Source: a virus | DNA: 31,584 bases | Virus record (IMG/VR): IMGVR_UViG_3300033134_000381 | Location: 1 to 31,584 of that record | Direction: 5' to 3' (one strand) | In this document: positions 21,576 through 31,584 of the stretch, piece by piece | How positions within the stretch are numbered: the stretch's first letter is position 1 | How the letters are laid out: every line of letters begins with the position of its first letter | Program-made: the position numbers and the translations under genes | The notes under the pieces: model-generated | Database searches by the model: none | What the model was told of the DNA's origin: nothing | Seen by the model: only the letters and a program-made list of their open reading frames with translations

Positions 21576-22829
21576 ATGAATCGTATAATTCTCGCCGCGC
21601 TGCTGGCGGCTGGCGTCGCCGTGCCCGCGCACGCGCAAACCTATCAGGATTCCGGCGGCACGGTTGTTCCGGGAGTCGTGCCGATCCAGCCAGGCGTCGG
21701 GCCGCTGTTTACTTCGGCCAATCCCGGCAAGATATCCGGCTCGTTTTCGGCCTCCCTGACCGGCTTTCAGCCGACACCATCCTATGCGTCGCTTTCAGTT
21801 GGCGCGACGTCCAACCGTGTTGCGTTGCCGAGCGGAACCGTCGTCGTCGTCTACAATACTGGCGCGAACGCAGCTTATGTGACCATTGGCGGCCCCAGCG
21901 TCACGGCGACCACATCCGACGATTTCGTGCCTGCTGGCGGCTGGATGGCCTTCTCAGTTGGCTCCAGCACGTACTTGGCTGGAATCGAGACCGCTGGCGC
22001 GAGCACACTGAACCTTTCAGGCGGCTCAGGCCTGCCCACCGGAGCCTGCTGCTCCACCAGCGGCGGCAGTGGGTCGAATGCCTCGGTCGGCGCGACCGGA
22101 GCTGCAGTTCCCTCATCCGCGACGCTCGGCGGCATGAGTGTCGGCGGCACGATGACGGCGCTGCTTGGAACGTCAAATGGCCTCAAGGTCGACGGCTCCG
22201 CGGTCACGCAGGCCGTCTCCGCCGCGAGCCTGCCGCTGCCATCGGGCGCGGCGACGGCTGCCAATCAAACCTCCTGGCAGGGAGCAACCGGGAGCTCGGT
22301 CCCGACTAATGCGGCGCTCGTCGGCGGCAACCTCGGTGGCGTTCTGACGGCGCTGCCGATGACCTCGAATGGCCTCAAGGTCGACGCTTCGGCTGTCACG
22401 CTCAATGTCGCCCATCCGACCGTCGGCTCCAGTGGATCGTCGGTCCCAAGCAGCGCAAGCTACGTTGGCGCGAACAGCGGGGGCAACCTCGTCGGGATCA
22501 TTCAGGCGAACGCCTCGGTTCCGATCAACATCTCGACGGCCACAACGACCCAGCTCGTACCGGCATCCGGATCGACCAAAATCTACGTAACTTCCTATGG
22601 TCTGCTTGCGGCGGGAACCGGCAACCTCACGTTTGAATATGGAACGGGATCAAACTGCGGGACGGGGACGACGGCGCTGACCGGCGCCTTCAATCTGACA
22701 GCGCAGGCGGGCGTTACGCAGGGCAGCGGCCTCGGCCCGATCCTCGTCGTGCCGGCCGGCGACGCGCTTTGCGTCCTGACCACCGCCGCGGTGCAGATGA
22801 GCGGCAGCGTCGCCTTTACCCAGTTCTGA
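21576..22829 (+). CDS. Repeat-containing adhesin with a signal peptide
   Basis: The 417-residue protein begins with a clear Sec signal peptide (MNRIILAALLAAGVAVPAHA, likely cut before Q21). The mature part is beta-rich. Two tandem units of about 60 residues between 170 and 290 each contain a VP..A...GG...TAL...SNGLKVD.SAVT pattern, followed by a diverged third. The C-terminal ~105 residues form a compact domain with NLTFEYGTGSNCGTGTTALT and a final CVLTTAAVQMSGSVAFTQF, with two cysteines. I take the ATG at 21576 because it gives the signal peptide; the frame is open further upstream. Its position suggests a fibre, but the signal peptide would send it to the periplasm or surface. Confidence 0.7.
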   Translation: MNRIILAALLAAGVAVPAHAQTYQDSGGTVVPGVVPIQPGVGPLFTSANPGKISGSFSASLTGFQPTPSYASLSVGATSNRVALPSGTVVVVYNTGANAAYVTIGGPSVTATTSDDFVPAGGWMAFSVGSSTYLAGIETAGASTLNLSGGSGLPTGACCSTSGGSGSNASVGATGAAVPSSATLGGMSVGGTMTALLGTSNGLKVDGSAVTQAVSAASLPLPSGAATAANQTSWQGATGSSVPTNAALVGGNLGGVLTALPMTSNGLKVDASAVTLNVAHPTVGSSGSSVPSSASYVGANSGGNLVGIIQANASVPINISTATTTQLVPASGSTKIYVTSYGLLAAGTGNLTFEYGTGSNCGTGTTALTGAFNLTAQAGVTQGSGLGPILVVPAGDALCVLTTAAVQMSGSVAFTQF

Positions 22830-22855
22830 ACGCAATGGACGGCTGGCAGAACCTC

Positions 22856-25800
22856 ATGCTGAGAAAATTCATCGCCGCCATCGCGGCCCTCATTTTCGCA
22901 GGCGTCGCGCCCGCCGAGGCCACCTCTATCACGCTGACCGGCGCCGGGGGCGTGTTCATCGGCTCGGGGCCGCTCTCGCCGCCGGCGATCACGCCGCAAG
23001 TCTCCGCGGCGTTCGACATCAATTCGGTGCTCGGCTCTGGCAACAACGCCCTCACCATGCCGGCGTCCGGCCCGACGGAGCTTCCCGCGACGCCGTCGAA
23101 TTCATGGTACATGACGGTCGAGGGCACGATCGACGCCAACCTCAGCACCTCGCAGACCGGCACCGAATATGCGCTGGCGAACTCGAACGCCTATGCGCTT
23201 CTCAGCGTCTTTCCGGCCACCGCCGGCTCGCCGGAATTCACCAGCCAATTGCGCTATGACGGGACAGCGTTCGCCTGGTGGTACGGAACGCCCGGCATCA
23301 ACCTGCCGCCCGCTGTCTTCCCGACCGCCGCCGCCACATCCAACACCAATCCCGGCCTCTATCAATGGACCGGCCAGGGCGGAAACTGCGCCCGCGAGCC
23401 GTCCGGCTATTTCGGCCCGACCGTCGGAGAGTTCGGCATCGCCGATCCCGGCTTCGGCTGCGTATTCACCCCGGCGGTGGTCATAGCGTCGATTCCGGGC
23501 TTCGGCATGCAGCAGACGCTGTCGACCGGGGCGACCTCGTGCGTCAGCAATTCGCCGGTCTCCGGCGAGATGACGGTGACCACGACGGTCGGCGTCGCCC
23601 ATGGCGTCTATCCGGGCGGGAGCTTCACGCTCTCCGGCTTCACCGGCGCCGGCAACACCGGGTATAACGCAACCTATAACGCGCTGATCGGCACGACCGG
23701 GACCACGCTCGTCGGCGAAGCGACCGGGAGCTGCCCGGCGAACAGCCCTGACACGTCCGGCGGCCTCGCGCTGTCGGGGACCGGCGGCGCGGTCACCATG
23801 CCCTCGACGACCAACACTCTCGCGGCCCAGGCCGGCCAGGGCATCACCACCCACGCGAACCAGAAGTTCTCCTGCGTCATCGGCGAGTTCGGCGCCGATT
23901 CGGCGACGCCCGGCGTCGCGTTCTCCCGCTGCGTCGACGGCAAGACCGGCAGCGATCTCTACGGCTCGCCGGCGGTGGTCAACACGGCCCTCAACGAAGG
24001 GGCGAGCAACTTCACCGGCTACGTGCTGGGCCTGGGCTCGAGCGGCTCGGCCCCGGAGCAGGACACCAGCTTCCCGGTCACCGCCTCGATCTCGGCCGCC
24101 GGCGTGATGAATGTCACCGCCAACACTTTCACGAGCAGCGCAACGGTTAACGGCACGACGACGCTCACGACGAGCGGCACGCCGACGGGCGTCATCGCGG
24201 TCGGCATGACGGTGACGGGAACCGACATTCCCGGCGGAACGACGATCACGGCGCTCGGGACGGGCACTGGCGCGGCCGGAACCTATACGATGAGCCAAAG
24301 CGCCACTGGCTCCTCGTCGATAACAGCCACGTTTGCTGGCGTGCTTTCCGTCGGCCAGACGGTCACCGGCCCGTCGCTGCCGCGAACCACCATCGCCTCG
24401 CTCGGGACGGGAACCGGCGGGACCGGCACCTATAACCTCGCCGCCGCGCAGGCCGGGCCGCTGGCGTCGGGGACCTATACCGTCCACACCTACGCGCCGG
24501 CGCTCGACGTCACCGCGCTCAATTCCTATTCGATCAGCGCGGCGAGCTGGGCTTCGACCGGCAACGGCCAGGCGACCTTCACCACGACCGCCGCGCACGG
24601 GCTCGTCCCCGGCTCGGTGTTCACCGTCTCCGGCGTTTCGCCCAGCGGCTATAACCAGACCTATATCGCGCTCGCCGGGACGACCGGCTCGACTCTCGTC
24701 GGCGGCGAGATCACCAGCACGTCCAGCATCACGCCGGTCGCGCTCGCCAATCCCGGCGCCTATTCCTCCGGCGGCTCAGCCTCGCCGAATATCGAGCCGG
24801 GCATGATGATCACCGGGACGACCGGCTCGGCCCTCATCTCGCCCTATGGAACCTATGGATCGAGCGGGACCGGCGGGACCGGCTCCTACGCGCTCAGCGC
24901 CAACCAGGGAACCTGGACGATCACCGCCGGGACCGGCGGCGTCGCCAGCACGTCGCTGGTCGTCGCGACCCAGGGGGGAACCGGCTCTTACGAATTCCTC
25001 GCCGCGGGGGTCGGCCTCACCGGCTCGGGCGTCAGCGCTGGAACCTACATCCAGACCACTGTGAATGGCGGCGGCGCTGGCGCCTATACGCTCAACCAGA
25101 ACGCGACCGTCTCGACCGGCACGACGCTGACCACGACCGGAAATATCTGGTCCTCGTCCTCGCCGGGCAATCTCTACGCCGCGCCGCCTTTTTATTACCA
25201 TCCGCTGCCCAACACCGCGGCCTACGGCGGCTCGCTCAGCACCCACACGCAAACAAATTTCGGCAACATCGTCGGCCCGGTCGGATCGGAATACGCCACC
25301 TCGGCGAGCGGCGACCATCAGTGGGGCGGCTCGCTCGCCAATGTCGGCATGCACTGGACCGTCTTCCCGCAGAACCCGCCAGGATCGTCCGACGGCGCAG
25401 GCAATCCGTCGCTGACCGCGCTGCAATCGATCGCCGAGAAGACGACCGATTTCCTCGCCCTCGACAGCGCCAACGGCGGCTCGACGCAGTCGATGTATCG
25501 CCTGAGCGACACCGGCATCTGGGGCGACTCGAGCAACGCGACGATCACCGGCTATATTTCGGGCGCGAGCGGCGCGACGGCGACCCTCAACGTCTCCTCG
25601 ACCGTGCTCGGCTCGCTGGCGCTGGCGACGGGAACGGAGACCGCCTATCTCACCGGCCCTGGCCTCAACGGCGGCCAGGGGGCTTATGCGACGCTGCCGC
25701 TGACCACGACGGGATCGTCGACCTACACGCTCACCTTCTCGTCCGGGACGGCCGCCAATCTCGGCTCGTCCGGCTCGCCGGTCCAGTTCAACGTCGGGAA

Positions 25801-28800
25801 GCAGAAGCCGCTCGGCGTGCAGGGCAACGGCCTGATCACCGGCTACCTCACCGCCTCGGGCGGCTCGGGGCCCTGCGCCTCGGGGCCGTGCCTGCATGTC
25901 ACCGGCTTCCAGACATCGAGCCAATACTGGGCCGGCACGGCGTCGCTCTCGGGGACGGCGGGGACCTACCAGGACACGCTCACCATCAACTCGACCACCA
26001 CCGGGACCCCGGCGATCGGCGATCTCTGCTTCGATTCGACCCCGACCGACCTCACCGGGCCGCCGCTGGCGATCGCCGCCGGGACGACCTCGCCCTATAC
26101 GGTCGGCAACAATTATTATCTCGCGGGCTTCACCAGCGACGCAAACATGTATTGCACGCTCGCCCAGGTGACGCCGAACCAGTATCTTCTGAACGCCGGC
26201 CTCGCCACGCCGGTCATGGTCACCGGCTACGCCAACGGGTCGCAGGGCGGCCTCGGCGACTACACGATCTCGACCGCCGCCAACGGCGCGGTCGGCTCGT
26301 CCGGCTCGCCGGTCAACATCACGCTTTCCGGCGTTTTCGGCGGCGGCGCGCCGTCGCCCGGCCCGGCGCTCACCATCGCCGATCATGGGCCGGGTACGAC
26401 CTACGCCATCACCAACCGGCCGACCGCGAGCCCGACCGGCTCGATCCCGCTTTCCGGGACCTACAGCACGGCGAGCCTCGGCGGAACGCCGTCGGCGATC
26501 CAGGCGCAGCTTTCGCTGACCGCGAACGGCCCTGCGGTCAGCGGCTTCTCGTGGGCGAACCTTTCGTCGCAGACGATCGGCTCCGGAAACTGGTCGGGGA
26601 CGATCACCGGCGTGCCGCCGGGCGAATACTGGGTCTCGGTCCGGGCGGCGAACGGCACGGCCTATGCGACGCTGCCGAACGTGATCATGGTCGGCGATGT
26701 CTGGACCCTGACCGGCGAGGGCAATTACGGCAGCTGCACCGGGACGCTGGGCGGAAGCGTCGCCGCGACCAACTGGGGCTTTTTCGACGGCTCCGTCGTG
26801 CTTGGCTTCACCGATCCGATCTTCGGCCCGGCGGTGATCAACGACCTCAAGCCGTCCTCGTCGCAGGCGGCGCTCGTCAACCGCTACTCCCCCGGCGGCA
26901 CGGTCGCGGTGCTGCCGGAATGCACGATGAACCAGGCGCAGACCTGGTGGAACCTGGCCGGGACGCCGCTCGCGCAGCTTTACCTCATCCGCAACGGCAC
27001 CGGCATCGGCCCGGACCTCTGGGGCAACCAGTCGCAGGTCCAGACGCTCGGGATCGGCGACGGGACATCGACGACCTGGTGCTCGTCGGCGAGCCTCTGC
27101 GCCAACGATTCGTCGAGCCTCTTGACCTTCAACGCCGCGAGTTTGAGCGGCGCGCAGATCACCGGCTACGTGACAACCTCGGGCGGCGTCTCGACGCTCA
27201 CCGTCAGCACCATCATCGGCGCGCTCGAACCGGGGCTCATCCTGTCCGGCTCCGGCGTCAGCGGCTCGCCGACGCTCGTCGCCTGCAAGGTGGTCTCGTC
27301 GAGTTCGTGCAACTTCAACTCGAACGAGAGCGGGACCGCGATCGGATCGAACTGGCTCATTTCCGCCAATCTCGGCACGATCGGCTCCTCGGGGAGCCCG
27401 GTCGCCTTCACCCTTACCCCCTCGGGCGGCGCGGCGCTGCCGAACGGCAACCTGAATGCAACCGGCACTGGCCCGGTCGGCAGCTTCTCGACCAGCGTCG
27501 CGGCAAGCGTGCTTTATGGCTGGAACACGATCGCGCCTGGGACCTTCTCGGTCAGCGTCAACGGGACGGTGGTGTGCTCCGACACGACCGCCTTCTCCTA
27601 CACCGTGGCGTCCGGCCAATGCGCCGGCGCGGGAATCGCCAGTTCGTTCATCAATTACGGGACCGGCGCCTACGAGATCAATTTCTCCTCGCCGCCGGCA
27701 AGCGGCGCGGCGATCAACGCGACCTGGACCACCATCATGTCGGCCGACAATACCGGCGGCCCGGAGCTGGTCGACTGGTTCGGAACGAGCACGAGTCCGA
27801 CGAGCGGCCTCTGGGCGAGCGCGTTCGACAAGGCTCCCGGCGGCCCGTCGGCCAACGTGTTCGGCGGCTGCGGCTCCGACTGGGGTCCGGCTCAGACGAG
27901 TTCCTTCGGCTATCCGCGCTGGGCGATTGGCTACACCCAGCAGCTCGCGGAACTCTACGGGACCAAGGTTCCGGCGATCTTCCCCGGCGCGGTCTCGGCC
28001 CCCCTCCTGATGGCGGTCTACTGGCGCAACGACGGGCCGAACTGGGCGGACAACGGGACTTATGCGACAGCGTGGGGCGTCGGCAGCATGGCCTGCGACC
28101 AGTGGGCGCGCGACGCGACGACCTCGTCGCATTTCACGGGCTATGTCACCGCCGGCGGAACGCCGACGCTGACCCTCACCGCCGCCGCATCGGGGCCAAT
28201 GTGGGAAGGCGAAGTCATTGGCTGCAACCCCTATAGCGCTGCCTGCGCGCTGCCGGTCGGAACCTGGATCACCGGGCTTTCGAGCGGGACCTGGGGCGCG
28301 AGCGGGTCGGTCTATTCGCTGACCGCGCCGCTCGGCTCCTCGACGATCACCAGTTACGGCTCCTCTGGCTCGCCGGTCGCGATGCTGAACGAGGTCTATT
28401 ACGGCGACGCGCCGGAAAGCCACGGCGCGCCGGGCTATTTCGTCGGGCCGTTCAACGACAATTCGGTGCAGGAGACCGGCGGCGTCGGCGGCCTTGCGCT
28501 GCATCCCGCCGCCGGCATCGCGGGCGGCCGGCGGATCGGAACGCGGATCGCTGCGTTAGCGGCCGGGCCGCTCAGCGCCAATCCGAGCCTCACCGCGGCG
28601 CCGACGCTGTCGCGTTCGGTCAGTGGACCGGGAGCGTGCGATTCCTCGGCGACGACCTCGCCCTGCTTCGATGTCTCCGCAGCCTATCAGGCCTCGGCGA
28701 GCGCGACCTGGAGCGGCTCGACGGTGACGATCAGCGGGGGCTTGTCGGCGCACGCCCGGCCGTTCGTCGACGGCATGGCGATCTCCTGCTCGGGCTGCAA

Positions 28801-29911
28801 CAGCGGCCTCTACATCGTCTCGGTCTCGGCCCCGCCGACGCAATCGACAGTGTCCGGCGCGGGCCAGGTCGGCAACACCTTCACCTTCACGGCAAATGGC
28901 GCGATCGGCGGCTCGGGCTCGGGCACGATCGACGGCGGCTGCTCGGGGACGGCGGGGACCGGGTCAAACTGCATCGACATGGCGTTCTCGATCAACGTCA
29001 GCGGAACCTTCGGGACCGCGGCGGCGCTCGCCACCTGCGGGGCGAACAACCTTCAGGGCACGCCGAGCGGCGTCGGCGCCGTGCCGCTCGGCAAATGCGT
29101 CGACGGCGGGATTGGCTCGATCGTCCGCAATTTCCGCATCGGCTCAAGCGCATGGATGGGAGTCGGCGACAACTACTACACCACGGCCGGCAATTATTAT
29201 GACGACGGCGCCGACTTCATCGCCGCCAATTACAACCAGAGCGGCGCGTTCACCTGCAACATCGTCGCGGCCAAGGTCGTCCAGTGCGTCAAGGGGCCGG
29301 TTTATACCAAGGGCGTTCCGTCAGGCGTCGGCGAATGGCTGAGCGGCGCGACTTTCGTTGAATACGGCGACGACATCCAGGGCGTCGGCCGAAGCGGCGG
29401 GATTACGGGGAATGTCGGCGGCCAGTCGTTCGCCTTCACCGCCGGCTCCGGCTACACCAATAATTCGAGCACGGCCTATGTCGGGACGGCGGTGTCTGGC
29501 TCATGCGCGATCGCCTTGGGGCCGGAGCCGAAGATCGACGTCTGGGTCTCGGGCGGTGCGATCGTCGACGTCTATCCGAGTTCGGCGACGGGCGCGATGA
29601 CCTACGGCATCGGCGGCGCCTGCTCGTTCCCGGCGGTGAGCAACACCAACTATGCGGGCATTGGCTCGGGCTCTGGCGGCGCGATCACAGCGCTCACCCA
29701 AGGCCCGAACGAGGGCCAGGGCGGCGTCGTCACTACCGGCAGCAACAACAACACGACGGGCGTCCAGCTCTACGACAATTCTTGCGAACCGGGGAACCCG
29801 CTGGCCACGCTGAATGTTGGGTGCGTCGCGCCAGCGACCAACACCTATTTCGAGCCTGGCCTGCCGGTCGTTCCGTGGGGCCAGTTCTACGGCGCGGCGG
29901 TGAGCGGATAA
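22856..29911 (+). CDS. Giant modular adhesin/tailspike with signal peptide and SGNH-like domain
   Basis: From the ATG at 22856 the product has about 2351 residues (an in-frame ATG at 22835 would add seven). It starts with a likely signal peptide (MLRKFIAAIAALIFAG, cut near A22). It is Gly/Ser/Thr-rich and made of beta modules. Residues about 230-800 contain repeated HG..PGS.FT.SG and VG..V.G...GT.I...GTGTGG.GTY units. From about 1190 a carbohydrate-esterase-like region appears: a SGTYST start, VGDVWTLTGEGNYG at 1279-1292 and LHPAAGIAGGRRIGTRIA at 1882-1899. These resemble sialate O-acetylesterase/SGNH proteins, but the usual GQSN serine is G1289 here. Four copies of another module interrupt this half. 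The end (about 2100-2351) has paired cysteines. It is the largest gene and the best receptor-recognition candidate. Confidence 0.75.
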   Translation: MLRKFIAAIAALIFAGVAPAEATSITLTGAGGVFIGSGPLSPPAITPQVSAAFDINSVLGSGNNALTMPASGPTELPATPSNSWYMTVEGTIDANLSTSQTGTEYALANSNAYALLSVFPATAGSPEFTSQLRYDGTAFAWWYGTPGINLPPAVFPTAAATSNTNPGLYQWTGQGGNCAREPSGYFGPTVGEFGIADPGFGCVFTPAVVIASIPGFGMQQTLSTGATSCVSNSPVSGEMTVTTTVGVAHGVYPGGSFTLSGFTGAGNTGYNATYNALIGTTGTTLVGEATGSCPANSPDTSGGLALSGTGGAVTMPSTTNTLAAQAGQGITTHANQKFSCVIGEFGADSATPGVAFSRCVDGKTGSDLYGSPAVVNTALNEGASNFTGYVLGLGSSGSAPEQDTSFPVTASISAAGVMNVTANTFTSSATVNGTTTLTTSGTPTGVIAVGMTVTGTDIPGGTTITALGTGTGAAGTYTMSQSATGSSSITATFAGVLSVGQTVTGPSLPRTTIASLGTGTGGTGTYNLAAAQAGPLASGTYTVHTYAPALDVTALNSYSISAASWASTGNGQATFTTTAAHGLVPGSVFTVSGVSPSGYNQTYIALAGTTGSTLVGGEITSTSSITPVALANPGAYSSGGSASPNIEPGMMITGTTGSALISPYGTYGSSGTGGTGSYALSANQGTWTITAGTGGVASTSLVVATQGGTGSYEFLAAGVGLTGSGVSAGTYIQTTVNGGGAGAYTLNQNATVSTGTTLTTTGNIWSSSSPGNLYAAPPFYYHPLPNTAAYGGSLSTHTQTNFGNIVGPVGSEYATSASGDHQWGGSLANVGMHWTVFPQNPPGSSDGAGNPSLTALQSIAEKTTDFLALDSANGGSTQSMYRLSDTGIWGDSSNATITGYISGASGATATLNVSSTVLGSLALATGTETAYLTGPGLNGGQGAYATLPLTTTGSSTYTLTFSSGTAANLGSSGSPVQFNVGKQKPLGVQGNGLITGYLTASGGSGPCASGPCLHVTGFQTSSQYWAGTASLSGTAGTYQDTLTINSTTTGTPAIGDLCFDSTPTDLTGPPLAIAAGTTSPYTVGNNYYLAGFTSDANMYCTLAQVTPNQYLLNAGLATPVMVTGYANGSQGGLGDYTISTAANGAVGSSGSPVNITLSGVFGGGAPSPGPALTIADHGPGTTYAITNRPTASPTGSIPLSGTYSTASLGGTPSAIQAQLSLTANGPAVSGFSWANLSSQTIGSGNWSGTITGVPPGEYWVSVRAANGTAYATLPNVIMVGDVWTLTGEGNYGSCTGTLGGSVAATNWGFFDGSVVLGFTDPIFGPAVINDLKPSSSQAALVNRYSPGGTVAVLPECTMNQAQTWWNLAGTPLAQLYLIRNGTGIGPDLWGNQSQVQTLGIGDGTSTTWCSSASLCANDSSSLLTFNAASLSGAQITGYVTTSGGVSTLTVSTIIGALEPGLILSGSGVSGSPTLVACKVVSSSSCNFNSNESGTAIGSNWLISANLGTIGSSGSPVAFTLTPSGGAALPNGNLNATGTGPVGSFSTSVAASVLYGWNTIAPGTFSVSVNGTVVCSDTTAFSYTVASGQCAGAGIASSFINYGTGAYEINFSSPPASGAAINATWTTIMSADNTGGPELVDWFGTSTSPTSGLWASAFDKAPGGPSANVFGGCGSDWGPAQTSSFGYPRWAIGYTQQLAELYGTKVPAIFPGAVSAPLLMAVYWRNDGPNWADNGTYATAWGVGSMACDQWARDATTSSHFTGYVTAGGTPTLTLTAAASGPMWEGEVIGCNPYSAACALPVGTWITGLSSGTWGASGSVYSLTAPLGSSTITSYGSSGSPVAMLNEVYYGDAPESHGAPGYFVGPFNDNSVQETGGVGGLALHPAAGIAGGRRIGTRIAALAAGPLSANPSLTAAPTLSRSVSGPGACDSSATTSPCFDVSAAYQASASATWSGSTVTISGGLSAHARPFVDGMAISCSGCNSGLYIVSVSAPPTQSTVSGAGQVGNTFTFTANGAIGGSGSGTIDGGCSGTAGTGSNCIDMAFSINVSGTFGTAAALATCGANNLQGTPSGVGAVPLGKCVDGGIGSIVRNFRIGSSAWMGVGDNYYTTAGNYYDDGADFIAANYNQSGAFTCNIVAAKVVQCVKGPVYTKGVPSGVGEWLSGATFVEYGDDIQGVGRSGGITGNVGGQSFAFTAGSGYTNNSSTAYVGTAVSGSCAIALGPEPKIDVWVSGGAIVDVYPSSATGAMTYGIGGACSFPAVSNTNYAGIGSGSGGAITALTQGPNEGQGGVVTTGSNNNTTGVQLYDNSCEPGNPLATLNVGCVAPATNTYFEPGLPVVPWGQFYGAAVSG
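25544..28383 (+). repeat. Four copies of a TGY...GSSGSPV module inside the giant adhesin
   Basis: Copies at about 25544-25795, 25835-26330, 27158-27411 and 28132-28383 each begin with (I/F)TGY followed by a Gly/Ser/Thr-rich stretch, and end with GSSGSPV and a hydrophobic residue. Copy lengths range from about 80 to 165 codons, so units are diverged or carry insertions. Two copies interrupt the SGNH-like region. Confidence 0.6.
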
Positions 29912-29969: not shown

Positions 29970-30470
29970 ATGACCACTATCCGCCTGACCTTTTTGTCGC
30001 ATTTCTTAATTTGTCTTGCCTGCATGGCCCTAGCCTTCTTCGCCTGGATGAATGGCGTACCGCAGACGATTTGGGCCAACGACGTTTCCATGATGACGAG
30101 CGTGATTGGGGTCTTGTTCGCCGGGACCGCGCTCGCGCTCGCCCGACAGGCGTGGCTTGTCGACGAGCCCTTTGCAGAAACCGCGGCGCGGCAGTCGCGC
30201 TCCATGGGCGTGAGTATCGAGGATGAGCCCGCGGCACCGGCGATCTCTGCCGACCTCGGGCATCTCGCCGAGCGGCTTTGCGTCATGGCCGGTTTCGTCG
30301 GCACCGCGATCGGACTCAGCCTGCAAGCTAAGTCGCTCGCCGGCGGCGCCACCTCGTTCACGGCGCTCGCGACTTCACTCTACACCACGGCCTGCGGTGG
30401 CGCAGCGGCCGCGCTTACCGCGGTCCTTACTTATTCGCTCGAGGTGGGGATTCGGAGGGCGCGGCGATGA
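29970..30470 (+). CDS. MotA/TolQ/ExbB-like membrane protein
   Basis: The 166-residue protein has four likely membrane segments at about 9-26, 41-58, 102-118 and 135-155. The last two carry GTAIGL (111-116) and LATSLYTTACGG (133-144), which match the proton-channel core of the MotA/TolQ/ExbB family. Known members pair with MotB/ExbD/TolR proteins to convert proton flow into mechanical work in the envelope. A polar loop of about 40 residues lies between segments 2 and 3, shorter than in MotA. The stop overlaps the next start (ATGA), and that product looks like the partner. The ATG at 29970 has AGGGAAG at about 29956. No such gene is normally needed for a tail. Confidence 0.75.
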   Translation: MTTIRLTFLSHFLICLACMALAFFAWMNGVPQTIWANDVSMMTSVIGVLFAGTALALARQAWLVDEPFAETAARQSRSMGVSIEDEPAAPAISADLGHLAERLCVMAGFVGTAIGLSLQAKSLAGGATSFTALATSLYTTACGGAAAALTAVLTYSLEVGIRRARR

Positions 30471-31069
30471 GAGACCGCAGCCCCATATGGATCGGCCTTG
30501 CCGATCTCATGCTCTGTATCGTGTCGGTCGTCATCGTCGCGGTCGCGCCAGTCAAAGCAAGGACGGATGGCATCAAGCCCAAGGCCGAGTACCTGATCTC
30601 GGCCGATTGGGACGTCATGCTCGACTCGGATGTTGACCTTTGGGTTGTCAATCCGTCTCAAAAGCCAATCTTCTACGGCTCTCGACAAGTCGGCTGCGCC
30701 GATCTCGATCACGACAGCCTTGGCTTCCAGACCTCGCTCGTCACCCTCGCCGACGGCTCGACCATCCGCGCAATCTCGAACAAGGAAGTAATATCGGTTC
30801 GCTGCTTCGAGCCAGGTCATTGGGACATCGCAGTGAACCTCTATTCCGATCGTGAACTCGCGGGGGGCAGGAAAGACATCAAGGTTCACGTCGAAGTCGT
30901 CGGCCTCAACCCGGAAGTTCGTACGGTGTTCGCCAAGGATGTGGCCCTCGATCGGGTCGGCCAGACTGTCAACGTCGTTTCGTTCGAGATGGAGCGTGAC
31001 GGCAAAATCACACTCGGCGACCCACCACTCCAGCCGATTACCGAGGCTTACAGGGGGAGGAAGCCGTGA
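30467..31069 (+). CDS. MotB/ExbD-like protein with unusual C-terminal domain
   Basis: The 200-residue protein has one N-terminal membrane segment (about 8-27) containing WIGLADLMLCIVSVVIVA. D13 is placed like the proton-carrying Asp of MotB and ExbD. The remaining ~170 residues are not the OmpA-like peptidoglycan-binding domain of MotB. They form a soluble, probably beta-rich domain with DVDLWVVNPS at 56-65, FYGSRQVG at 70-77 and LDHDSLG at 81-87, and would lie in the periplasm. GGAGG precedes the ATG, which overlaps the upstream stop. Pairing with the MotA/ExbB-like neighbour is inferred from this coupling and the topology. The C-terminal family is not one I can name. Confidence 0.75.
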   Translation: MRDRSPIWIGLADLMLCIVSVVIVAVAPVKARTDGIKPKAEYLISADWDVMLDSDVDLWVVNPSQKPIFYGSRQVGCADLDHDSLGFQTSLVTLADGSTIRAISNKEVISVRCFEPGHWDIAVNLYSDRELAGGRKDIKVHVEVVGLNPEVRTVFAKDVALDRVGQTVNVVSFEMERDGKITLGDPPLQPITEAYRGRKP

Positions 31070-31584
31070 GCTGCTTCAACGCCTTCGCGCTTTCCTTCGG
31101 ACTGTTGCTCATCGGCTTGACGCTCATTGCGGCATGGATATTCCGCACAGCAGCGGCGCCCTTGGCCGCCAAGCTTGCCTTGCCTGCTCTTTTGATCGCT
31201 CTCGGATGTATAACGCCATATGAAATCAATTCGATACTCGGGATGCCGAAGATGTCCGCACTCGCTGCGCTGCCGGACCGAGCTGAACTCATCGCCTTCG
31301 TGGCTCAAGATAACGATAAGCGCGCTGATCTTTGGCTCAGTGTCAGAGATGCCCCGCCGCGCGCTTACGAGATCGACATTGACGAGGCGATGAAGGAACT
31401 GCTGCGGGACGCGCGCAACCGCAAGGAACATGGCGATCGGGTAATGCTGGTCAAGCACGCCGAACATGCCGCCAAAGAAATGGGCCATCTGAGCATGACC
31501 ATGCAGATATCCCTCGATCCAGCGTACACGATCGACGACAGCGCCTTCGCTTTGCCGAACAAGAACGGGGCGATCGACCCGTAA
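31066..31584 (+). CDS. Third membrane protein of the proton-channel-like trio
   Basis: The 172-residue protein starts at a GTG overlapping the previous stop (GTGA), with GGGGGAGG at 31053-31060 as a strong ribosome binding site. It has two membrane segments (about 7-25 and 36-50), then a soluble domain with ELIAFVAQDND at 74-84, ADLWLSVRDAPPRAYEID at 87-104, a charged helix (about 106-125) and a polar end. The DLW..V...P pattern recalls the upstream protein's DVDLW region, but similarity is too short to call homology. The frame ends exactly at the last base of the window with TAA, so it appears complete. The function is unknown. Confidence 0.7.
   Translation: MSCFNAFALSFGLLLIGLTLIAAWIFRTAAAPLAAKLALPALLIALGCITPYEINSILGMPKMSALAALPDRAELIAFVAQDNDKRADLWLSVRDAPPRAYEIDIDEAMKELLRDARNRKEHGDRVMLVKHAEHAAKEMGHLSMTMQISLDPAYTIDDSAFALPNKNGAIDP

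Follow-up and report, generated by a model that had tools for sequence, protein, structure and literature searches.

A conserved three-gene operon of phages and Proteobacteria with a predicted MotA/TolQ/ExbB-type channel subunit and a predicted TerD-like periplasmic domain

Organization of the locus

The window, that is the whole stretch of DNA that was analysed, corresponds to an entire IMG/VR record, linear and 31,584 bases in length. It carries late genes from a tailed phage; the tail proteins are gene-transfer-agent-like (GTA_TIM, DUF2460). There is no integrase in view within the record and no lysis gene within the window itself. It ends with three genes, here designated A, B and C (29970-31584, all on the plus strand), which overlap by 4 bases each (ATGA and GTGA), as had been stated in a preliminary description of this DNA. 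They are located immediately downstream of a giant tail-associated gene, the product of which is rich in Gly, Thr and Ser and has no PHROGs match. The record terminates with the stop codon of C, so that the operon may extend past it. The main features are as follows.

22769-29911, plus strand: giant tail-associated gene immediately upstream of A, 2,380-aa product
29970-30470, plus strand: gene A, 166 aa, predicted channel subunit of the MotA/TolQ/ExbB superfamily with a short cytoplasmic loop
30288-30305, plus strand: GFVGT motif of the third span of A (residues 107-112); G108 and G111 invariant and T112 nearly so in the family alignment
30384-30398, plus strand: TTACG of A (residues 139-143) at the start of the predicted fourth span; T140 and G143 invariant, candidate channel Thr ring
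30467-31069, plus strand: gene B, 200 aa, single-span ExbD-like partner with a predicted TerD-like beta-sandwich
30503-30505, plus strand: Asp13 of B, candidate proton carrier
30587-31018, plus strand: predicted periplasmic domain of B (residues 41-184), TerD-like beta-sandwich according to VIA-align of the AF2 model
30629-30643, plus strand: DVDLW of B (residues 55-59); D55 and D57 invariant in 65/65 proteins
30704-30724, plus strand: LDHDSLG of B (residues 80-86; LDRDDxG in the family); L80, D83 and G86 invariant
31066-31584, plus strand: gene C, 172 aa, GTG start, two spans and a predicted periplasmic OB-like domain
31354-31368, plus strand: PPRAY motif of C (residues 97-101); P98 and R99 nearly invariant in the family

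Taken singly, the A, B and C products of the window gave no useful match in Pfam, PHROGs, NCBIfam or PADLOC, nor did A or C retrieve anything from phages by tblastn. The sole entry point to the family was B, for which tblastn returned 21 Rhizobium phage records. HMMs were built from relatives only, the window and L007 (a locus of the window's own phage lineage) being left out, and each of them had a single match among the 319 ORFs of the window, which was A (4.4e-9), B (3.9e-39) or C (1.9e-14); since the profiles of the relatives pick these three ORFs alone, the trio is not a chance assemblage. At the level of the family, B and C have no notable Pfam match and no PHROGs, NCBIfam or PADLOC model naming them. 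No paper dealing with the trio was found among the open-licence papers searched, nor was a phenotype found for any of its genes.

Gene A is related to the channel subunits of ion-driven motors

Hydropathy indicates three clear spans in A (residues 6-24, 39-57 and 103-121), and the alignment points to a weaker fourth span at about residues 135-155. The product of the window's gene A alone has no match to PF01618 or to any MotA/ExbB model, but PF01618 (MotA_ExbB) is matched at E <= 0.1 by 33 of 35 relatives, several of which exceed the curated cut-off, and the A family profile finds MotA (8gqy, 7e-10), PomA, TolQ and ExbB in the PDB. The earlier assignment as a four-span protein of the MotA/ExbB type thus stands by way of the relatives and not for the window's A alone, which is unmatched and has three clear spans; the absence of any profile match, which had been put forward as a refutation, was found for this protein by itself and not for its relatives. 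The Gly/Thr pattern expected of the last two channel spans is present in A, with T140 as a candidate for the channel Thr ring reported for MotA, ExbB and TolQ (PMC12204202). In phylogenetic analyses, the A proteins of the trio form one clade (98/92; 99% of bootstrap trees) apart from the sampled ExbB-, TolQ- and MotA-type proteins. From sequence comparison, A belongs definitely, if distantly, to the MotA/TolQ/ExbB superfamily, in which it represents a separate, new clade.

Phage A proteins are 141-167 aa long versus 207-266 aa for their chromosomal counterparts, a gap that according to the alignment corresponds mostly to the cytoplasmic loop. The annotation of the A gene of phage RHph_N3_19 (EVB99_065, L005:7451-7882) is 90 bases short, and a longer start recovers the first span.

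Gene B combines a membrane Asp with a predicted beta-sandwich, and gene C is a two-span protein

A single span is indicated by hydropathy at residues 9-27 of B, with Asp13 at its start. This position is occupied by Asp in 56/65 B proteins and by Val or Ile in the remaining 9, all of the Labrys/Inquilinus clade, in which the Asp of a DPF motif three residues upstream may stand in for the membrane Asp. The Val/Ile loci (L010, L018, L023, L024, L026, L062, L065, L072 and L079) belong to one chromosomal group, and those of their proteins that were inspected carry the earlier Asp within DPFSV. In hhalign comparisons, Asp13 falls in register with the Asp of ExbD, at a modest score and with the helix alone aligning. 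No Pfam match to the ExbD periplasmic domain (PF02472), to OmpA-like domains or to vWA domains was found in the window's B or in 36 relatives, so that the preliminary description of B as a single-span protein with a membrane Asp (D13) and no OmpA-like domain holds.

The AF2 model of B (pLDDT 87.6) consists of a helix (residues 6-26) followed by a beta-sandwich (42-184). When this domain was compared using VIA-align, three TerD-family entries were retrieved with Z scores of 11.3, 10.1 and 9.5, together with the radial-spoke protein 7jtk_A (Z 9.7), the following rows being at 6.2. Foldseek of B against the PDB gave no match at E <= 0.001, PF02342 was matched by neither B nor its relatives, and the hhalign probability for TerD was 0.6-2%; the TerD likeness is therefore a predicted one, at the level of the fold, and is not confirmed as homology by sequence. 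Nine residues are invariant in 65/65 B proteins (W48, D55, D57, L80, D83, G86, E107, R112 and G117), and D55, D57, D83 and E107 are compatible with Ca2+ binding. This acidic cluster of the sandwich probably represents a Ca2+-binding site, a prediction to be set beside the calcium binding reported for Klebsiella TerD (PMC8123226).

The third product proved to be a two-span protein with a PPRAY motif, as first described. Its spans lie at residues 7-25 and 31-49 (hydropathy), and the loop between them carries K or R in 36/36 relatives, which by the positive-inside rule places the remaining domain in the periplasm. The AF2 model (pLDDT 81.4) contains two helices followed by a beta-beta-beta-alpha-beta arrangement that is OB-like. 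Foldseek against the PDB yielded no significant match, and the best OB-like fold match (Z 6.0) is too weak for a family name.

Distribution and history of the trio

When 84,980 species genomes were scanned, 44 B loci were retrieved. Gene A occurs just upstream and C just downstream of B in 39/39 chromosomal loci, this number being the 44 loci minus L007 and four distant ones devoid of A and C. The same A-B-C order was found in 26/26 loci from two surveys, two of these loci coming from genomes already represented. The trio is a conserved unit; homologues that occur singly, which had been put forward as a refutation, are not the rule. In the surveys, B was detected at E < 1e-20 in 56/385 Alphaproteobacteria (ca. 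15%) and 39/369 Gammaproteobacteria (11%), these figures rising to 65 and 43, respectively, at the looser threshold of E <= 0.001. Overall, the trio occurs in about one eighth of the sampled Alpha- and Gammaproteobacteria, among them many free-living species; this chromosomal occurrence had escaped the preliminary description. The B-like matches L047-L050, from Myxococcota and a deltaproteobacterium, have neither A nor C and a DUF2135-type look, and were excluded. One contig carries a tandem pair of B genes (L087:5018-6254) with no A or C found alongside, and a full trio (L088) elsewhere.

Among phages, the trio is found in T4-like Rhizobium phages, a 68-kb phage, a 238-kb contig and the temperate phage 16-3. 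In the Rhizobium phages N34, I1_18, N3_19 and AF3, genes for short membrane proteins lie on either side of B, again in the order of the trio, and in phages 16-3 and NV1.1.1 the trio has been retained despite the insertion of small genes between its members. No Rhizobium chromosome or plasmid was found among the B relatives. In the B tree, phage sequences occur in two places, those of 16-3 and NV1.1.1 being located beside the Azospirillum/Kiloniella type and the others forming one phage group, inside which the window sits on a long branch. Support for this group is moderate (89/80), and long branches converge there. The tree makes it likely, though not proven, that the trio has been exchanged between chromosomes and phages more than once.

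Genomic neighbourhood

The relation of the trio to lysis and tail genes differs among phages. In L007, a tail gene is followed by A, B, C, a short gene designated X, a gene encoding a 315-aa product and an endolysin gene (Amidase_2 and PG_binding_1, both above cut-off) located ca. 2 kb past the trio. In L158, an endolysin gene (Phage_lysozyme2) and then a holin-like gene (match below cut-off) lie shortly upstream of A, B and C, from which they are separated by small genes followed by X. The Rhizobium phages N34, AF3, I1_18 and N3_19 carry the trio among replication and recombination genes, the lysozyme gene of N3_19 being 17 kb away on the opposite strand. A constant linkage to endolysin or holin genes was thus not found, and the initial proposal that the operon occupies the usual place of lysis genes applies to the window lineage (L007, L158) but not to the Rhizobium phages. 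Similarly, the impression that such proteins occur near the tail genes of other phages was correct for phage 16-3, L051, L157 and L159 but not for N34, AF3, I1_18 and N3_19; a tail gene followed by A is an order common to the window, L007, L157 and L159.

Gene X encodes a short secreted protein ('LTPGQFHFVEGxYVGSPxTPDGLPPGDGALL') and is found beside the trio in all four relatives of the window's phage, L007 (ca. 2608-2990), L157 (10664-11122), L158 (9474-9995) and L159 (11975-12436). It probably also occurs just beyond the end of the window. In two of these, both close relatives, A and C are open and B is damaged, being broken by frame changes in L157 (8891-10477) and mostly deleted in L159 (9932-11232). 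This loss represents either decay or an assembly error; taken at face value, it indicates that the machine is dispensable there.

On chromosomes, the neighbours of the trio are mostly unrelated housekeeping genes, with no defence island and no universal neighbour. Only a gene encoding a DUF3108-like lipoprotein ('YFPL...W.Y') recurs, by C in 8/55 chromosomal regions (L089, L090, L092, L093, L094, L096, L099 and L103) and directly adjacent in 7, and its product is a possible outer-membrane partner. Other genes were noted around phage copies of the trio. A protease of the trypsin-like type, probably periplasmic, is encoded in 16-3 (L155:12163-13062), in NV1.1.1 (L156:4973-5695) and in an IMG/VR contig (L058:10993-11649), and RHph_N3_19 also has an annotated trypsin-like protease (EVB99_075). 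A vWA-domain protein is encoded 2 kb past the trio of Rhizobium phage I1_18 (L004:10748-12181). In ter systems, vWA and TerD domains are associated.

Comparison with known systems

Ion-driven motors of the 5:2 type, among them the proton-powered ones that rotate flagella or energise transport at the outer membrane, form a small group. The trio resembles TolQ-TolR and ExbB-ExbD in having a PF01618 channel, a single-span partner with a membrane Asp, a third inner-membrane protein and a predicted periplasmic output. It differs from them in that A forms a separate clade, in that B has a predicted TerD-like sandwich in place of the ExbD/TolR domain, and in that C has two spans and no TolA or TonB features. 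Unlike in flagellar MotAB, B has no OmpA-like peptidoglycan-binding domain, its predicted sandwich being closest to TerD. With Zorya ZorA-ZorB it shares a MotA-like ring protein and an Asp helix outside motility, but it is devoid of the long cytoplasmic tail, of the ZorB domain and of ZorC/D or ZorE effectors alongside. TolQ-like motors with TPH-vWA partners, which have vWA heads and paired B genes, have been described (Mol Biol Evol 2025, PMC12204202), and there too a TolQ-type ring gene adjoins that of a membrane-Asp helix partner with an unusual periplasmic domain; the trio has instead a predicted TerD-like all-beta head, a single B and a third gene, C. DUF appendages on such motors have also been reported (PMC12505986). 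Since these surveys contain other unusual motor partners, the principle is already known, yet neither text was found to mention a TerD-like head or a trio of this kind, and no such phage system was found in the text of PMC12204202. As for TerD itself, the likeness lies in the fold that is predicted for the B domain (Z 9.5-11.3) and in the acidic DxD and LDRDDxG motifs; B differs in being membrane-tethered, in its presumed periplasmic location and in not being detected as TerD by sequence.

A close case in a growable phage is p038/p040/p042 of the temperate Rhizobium phage 16-3, a trio in the same order that differs from that of the window in the insertion of p039 and p041 and in a B of the Azospirillum/Kiloniella type. 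These comparisons indicate that the trio is not a Zorya, Tol, Ton or flagellar system and, in the absence of any OmpA, PF02472, ZorB or vWA match, uphold the earlier statement that it fits no named system.

Possible function

We propose, with a probability of roughly 0.6, that the three products together make up a single ion-driven machine of the inner membrane, of the MotA/TolQ/ExbB type, which has a purely periplasmic output and serves phages as an accessory. By analogy with MotAB, ExbBD and TolQR, and on the assumption of a 5:2 arrangement, A would form a pentameric ring and two B helices the axle; protons would pass via Asp13 of B and the Thr of A, so that B would be moved or rotated, and C would probably be a coupling or gating subunit. 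The machine would act on a target in the periplasm or the outer membrane, as Tol and Ton do. A periplasmic output is suggested by phage A proteins having little cytoplasmic loop and by B and C facing outward, and the DUF3108-like lipoprotein by C and the secreted X by the trio likewise point to the periplasm or outer membrane. Counting against a motor is the Val or Ile that replaces the membrane Asp in 9/65 B proteins. As a guess, the machine would serve the phage to alter the host envelope during infection or lysogeny; we tentatively suggest exclusion of rival phages first and support of lysis second. In a fuller version, phages would encode an entire rotary motor of their own, driven by protons and fitted with a TerD-like, calcium-responsive axle head and a third, gating subunit, and would use it to remodel the envelope of the host; this is possible but doubtful.

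Because the trio borders an endolysin gene in L007, and an endolysin and a holin-like gene in L158, it might instead be a lysis component, its channel collapsing or redirecting the proton-motive force, or disrupting the outer membrane, late in infection together with the endolysin. This seems unlikely, since in lytic Rhizobium phages the trio is surrounded by DNA-replication genes (17 kb from the lysozyme gene in N3_19), which makes a general lysis role improbable. L158 moreover already has a holin-like gene of its own, and the conservation of the trio on the chromosomes of many free-living species is hard to fit with a killer cassette. A Zorya-like anti-phage defence, in which a membrane motor would sense a rival infection and trigger a response, would agree with the presence of the trio in both phages and chromosomes, as for other defence genes, with weak matches of chromosomal A proteins to ZorA models (best 3.9e-7, via the shared channel domain) and with the link of ter operons to phage inhibition (PMC8123226). 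We regard it as quite unlikely, given that no PADLOC family is matched by B, or at a meaningful E-value by C, that A has no cytoplasmic tail, that no nuclease or helicase gene is regularly found beside the trio and that its chromosomal neighbours are mostly housekeeping genes.

Two further explanations concern the phage copies. These could be decoys for counter-defence or takeover that poison the host's own trio or its Tol, Ton or Zorya motors, as the shortening of phage A, the clustering of most phage B proteins in one group and the association with replication genes in lytic phages would allow. One subunit would suffice for this, however, and all three are retained together with the membrane Asp, while the absence of Rhizobium chromosomes and plasmids from the B relatives leaves no obvious target of like kind in those hosts; we hold such a role to be distinctly improbable. 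That the genes are passengers of no use to the phage would accord with the damaged B of L157 and L159 and with the long branch of the window lineage, but the trio is intact and its invariant residues are retained across T4-like, 68-kb, 16-3-like and 238-kb phages, which makes this the remotest of the explanations considered.

Whichever use phages make of it, the trio enlarges the ion-driven motors by an uncharacterised family that has a third subunit and a periplasmic head of a new type. All three genes have been retained by several phages that are unrelated to one another, and as growth and editing are feasible for 16-3 and the Rhizobium phages, the use of the trio by phages is testable now. 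If the proposal of an ion-driven envelope machine is true, a phage motor that remodels the envelope, for example by shutting out other phages, would represent a new type of function for a phage.
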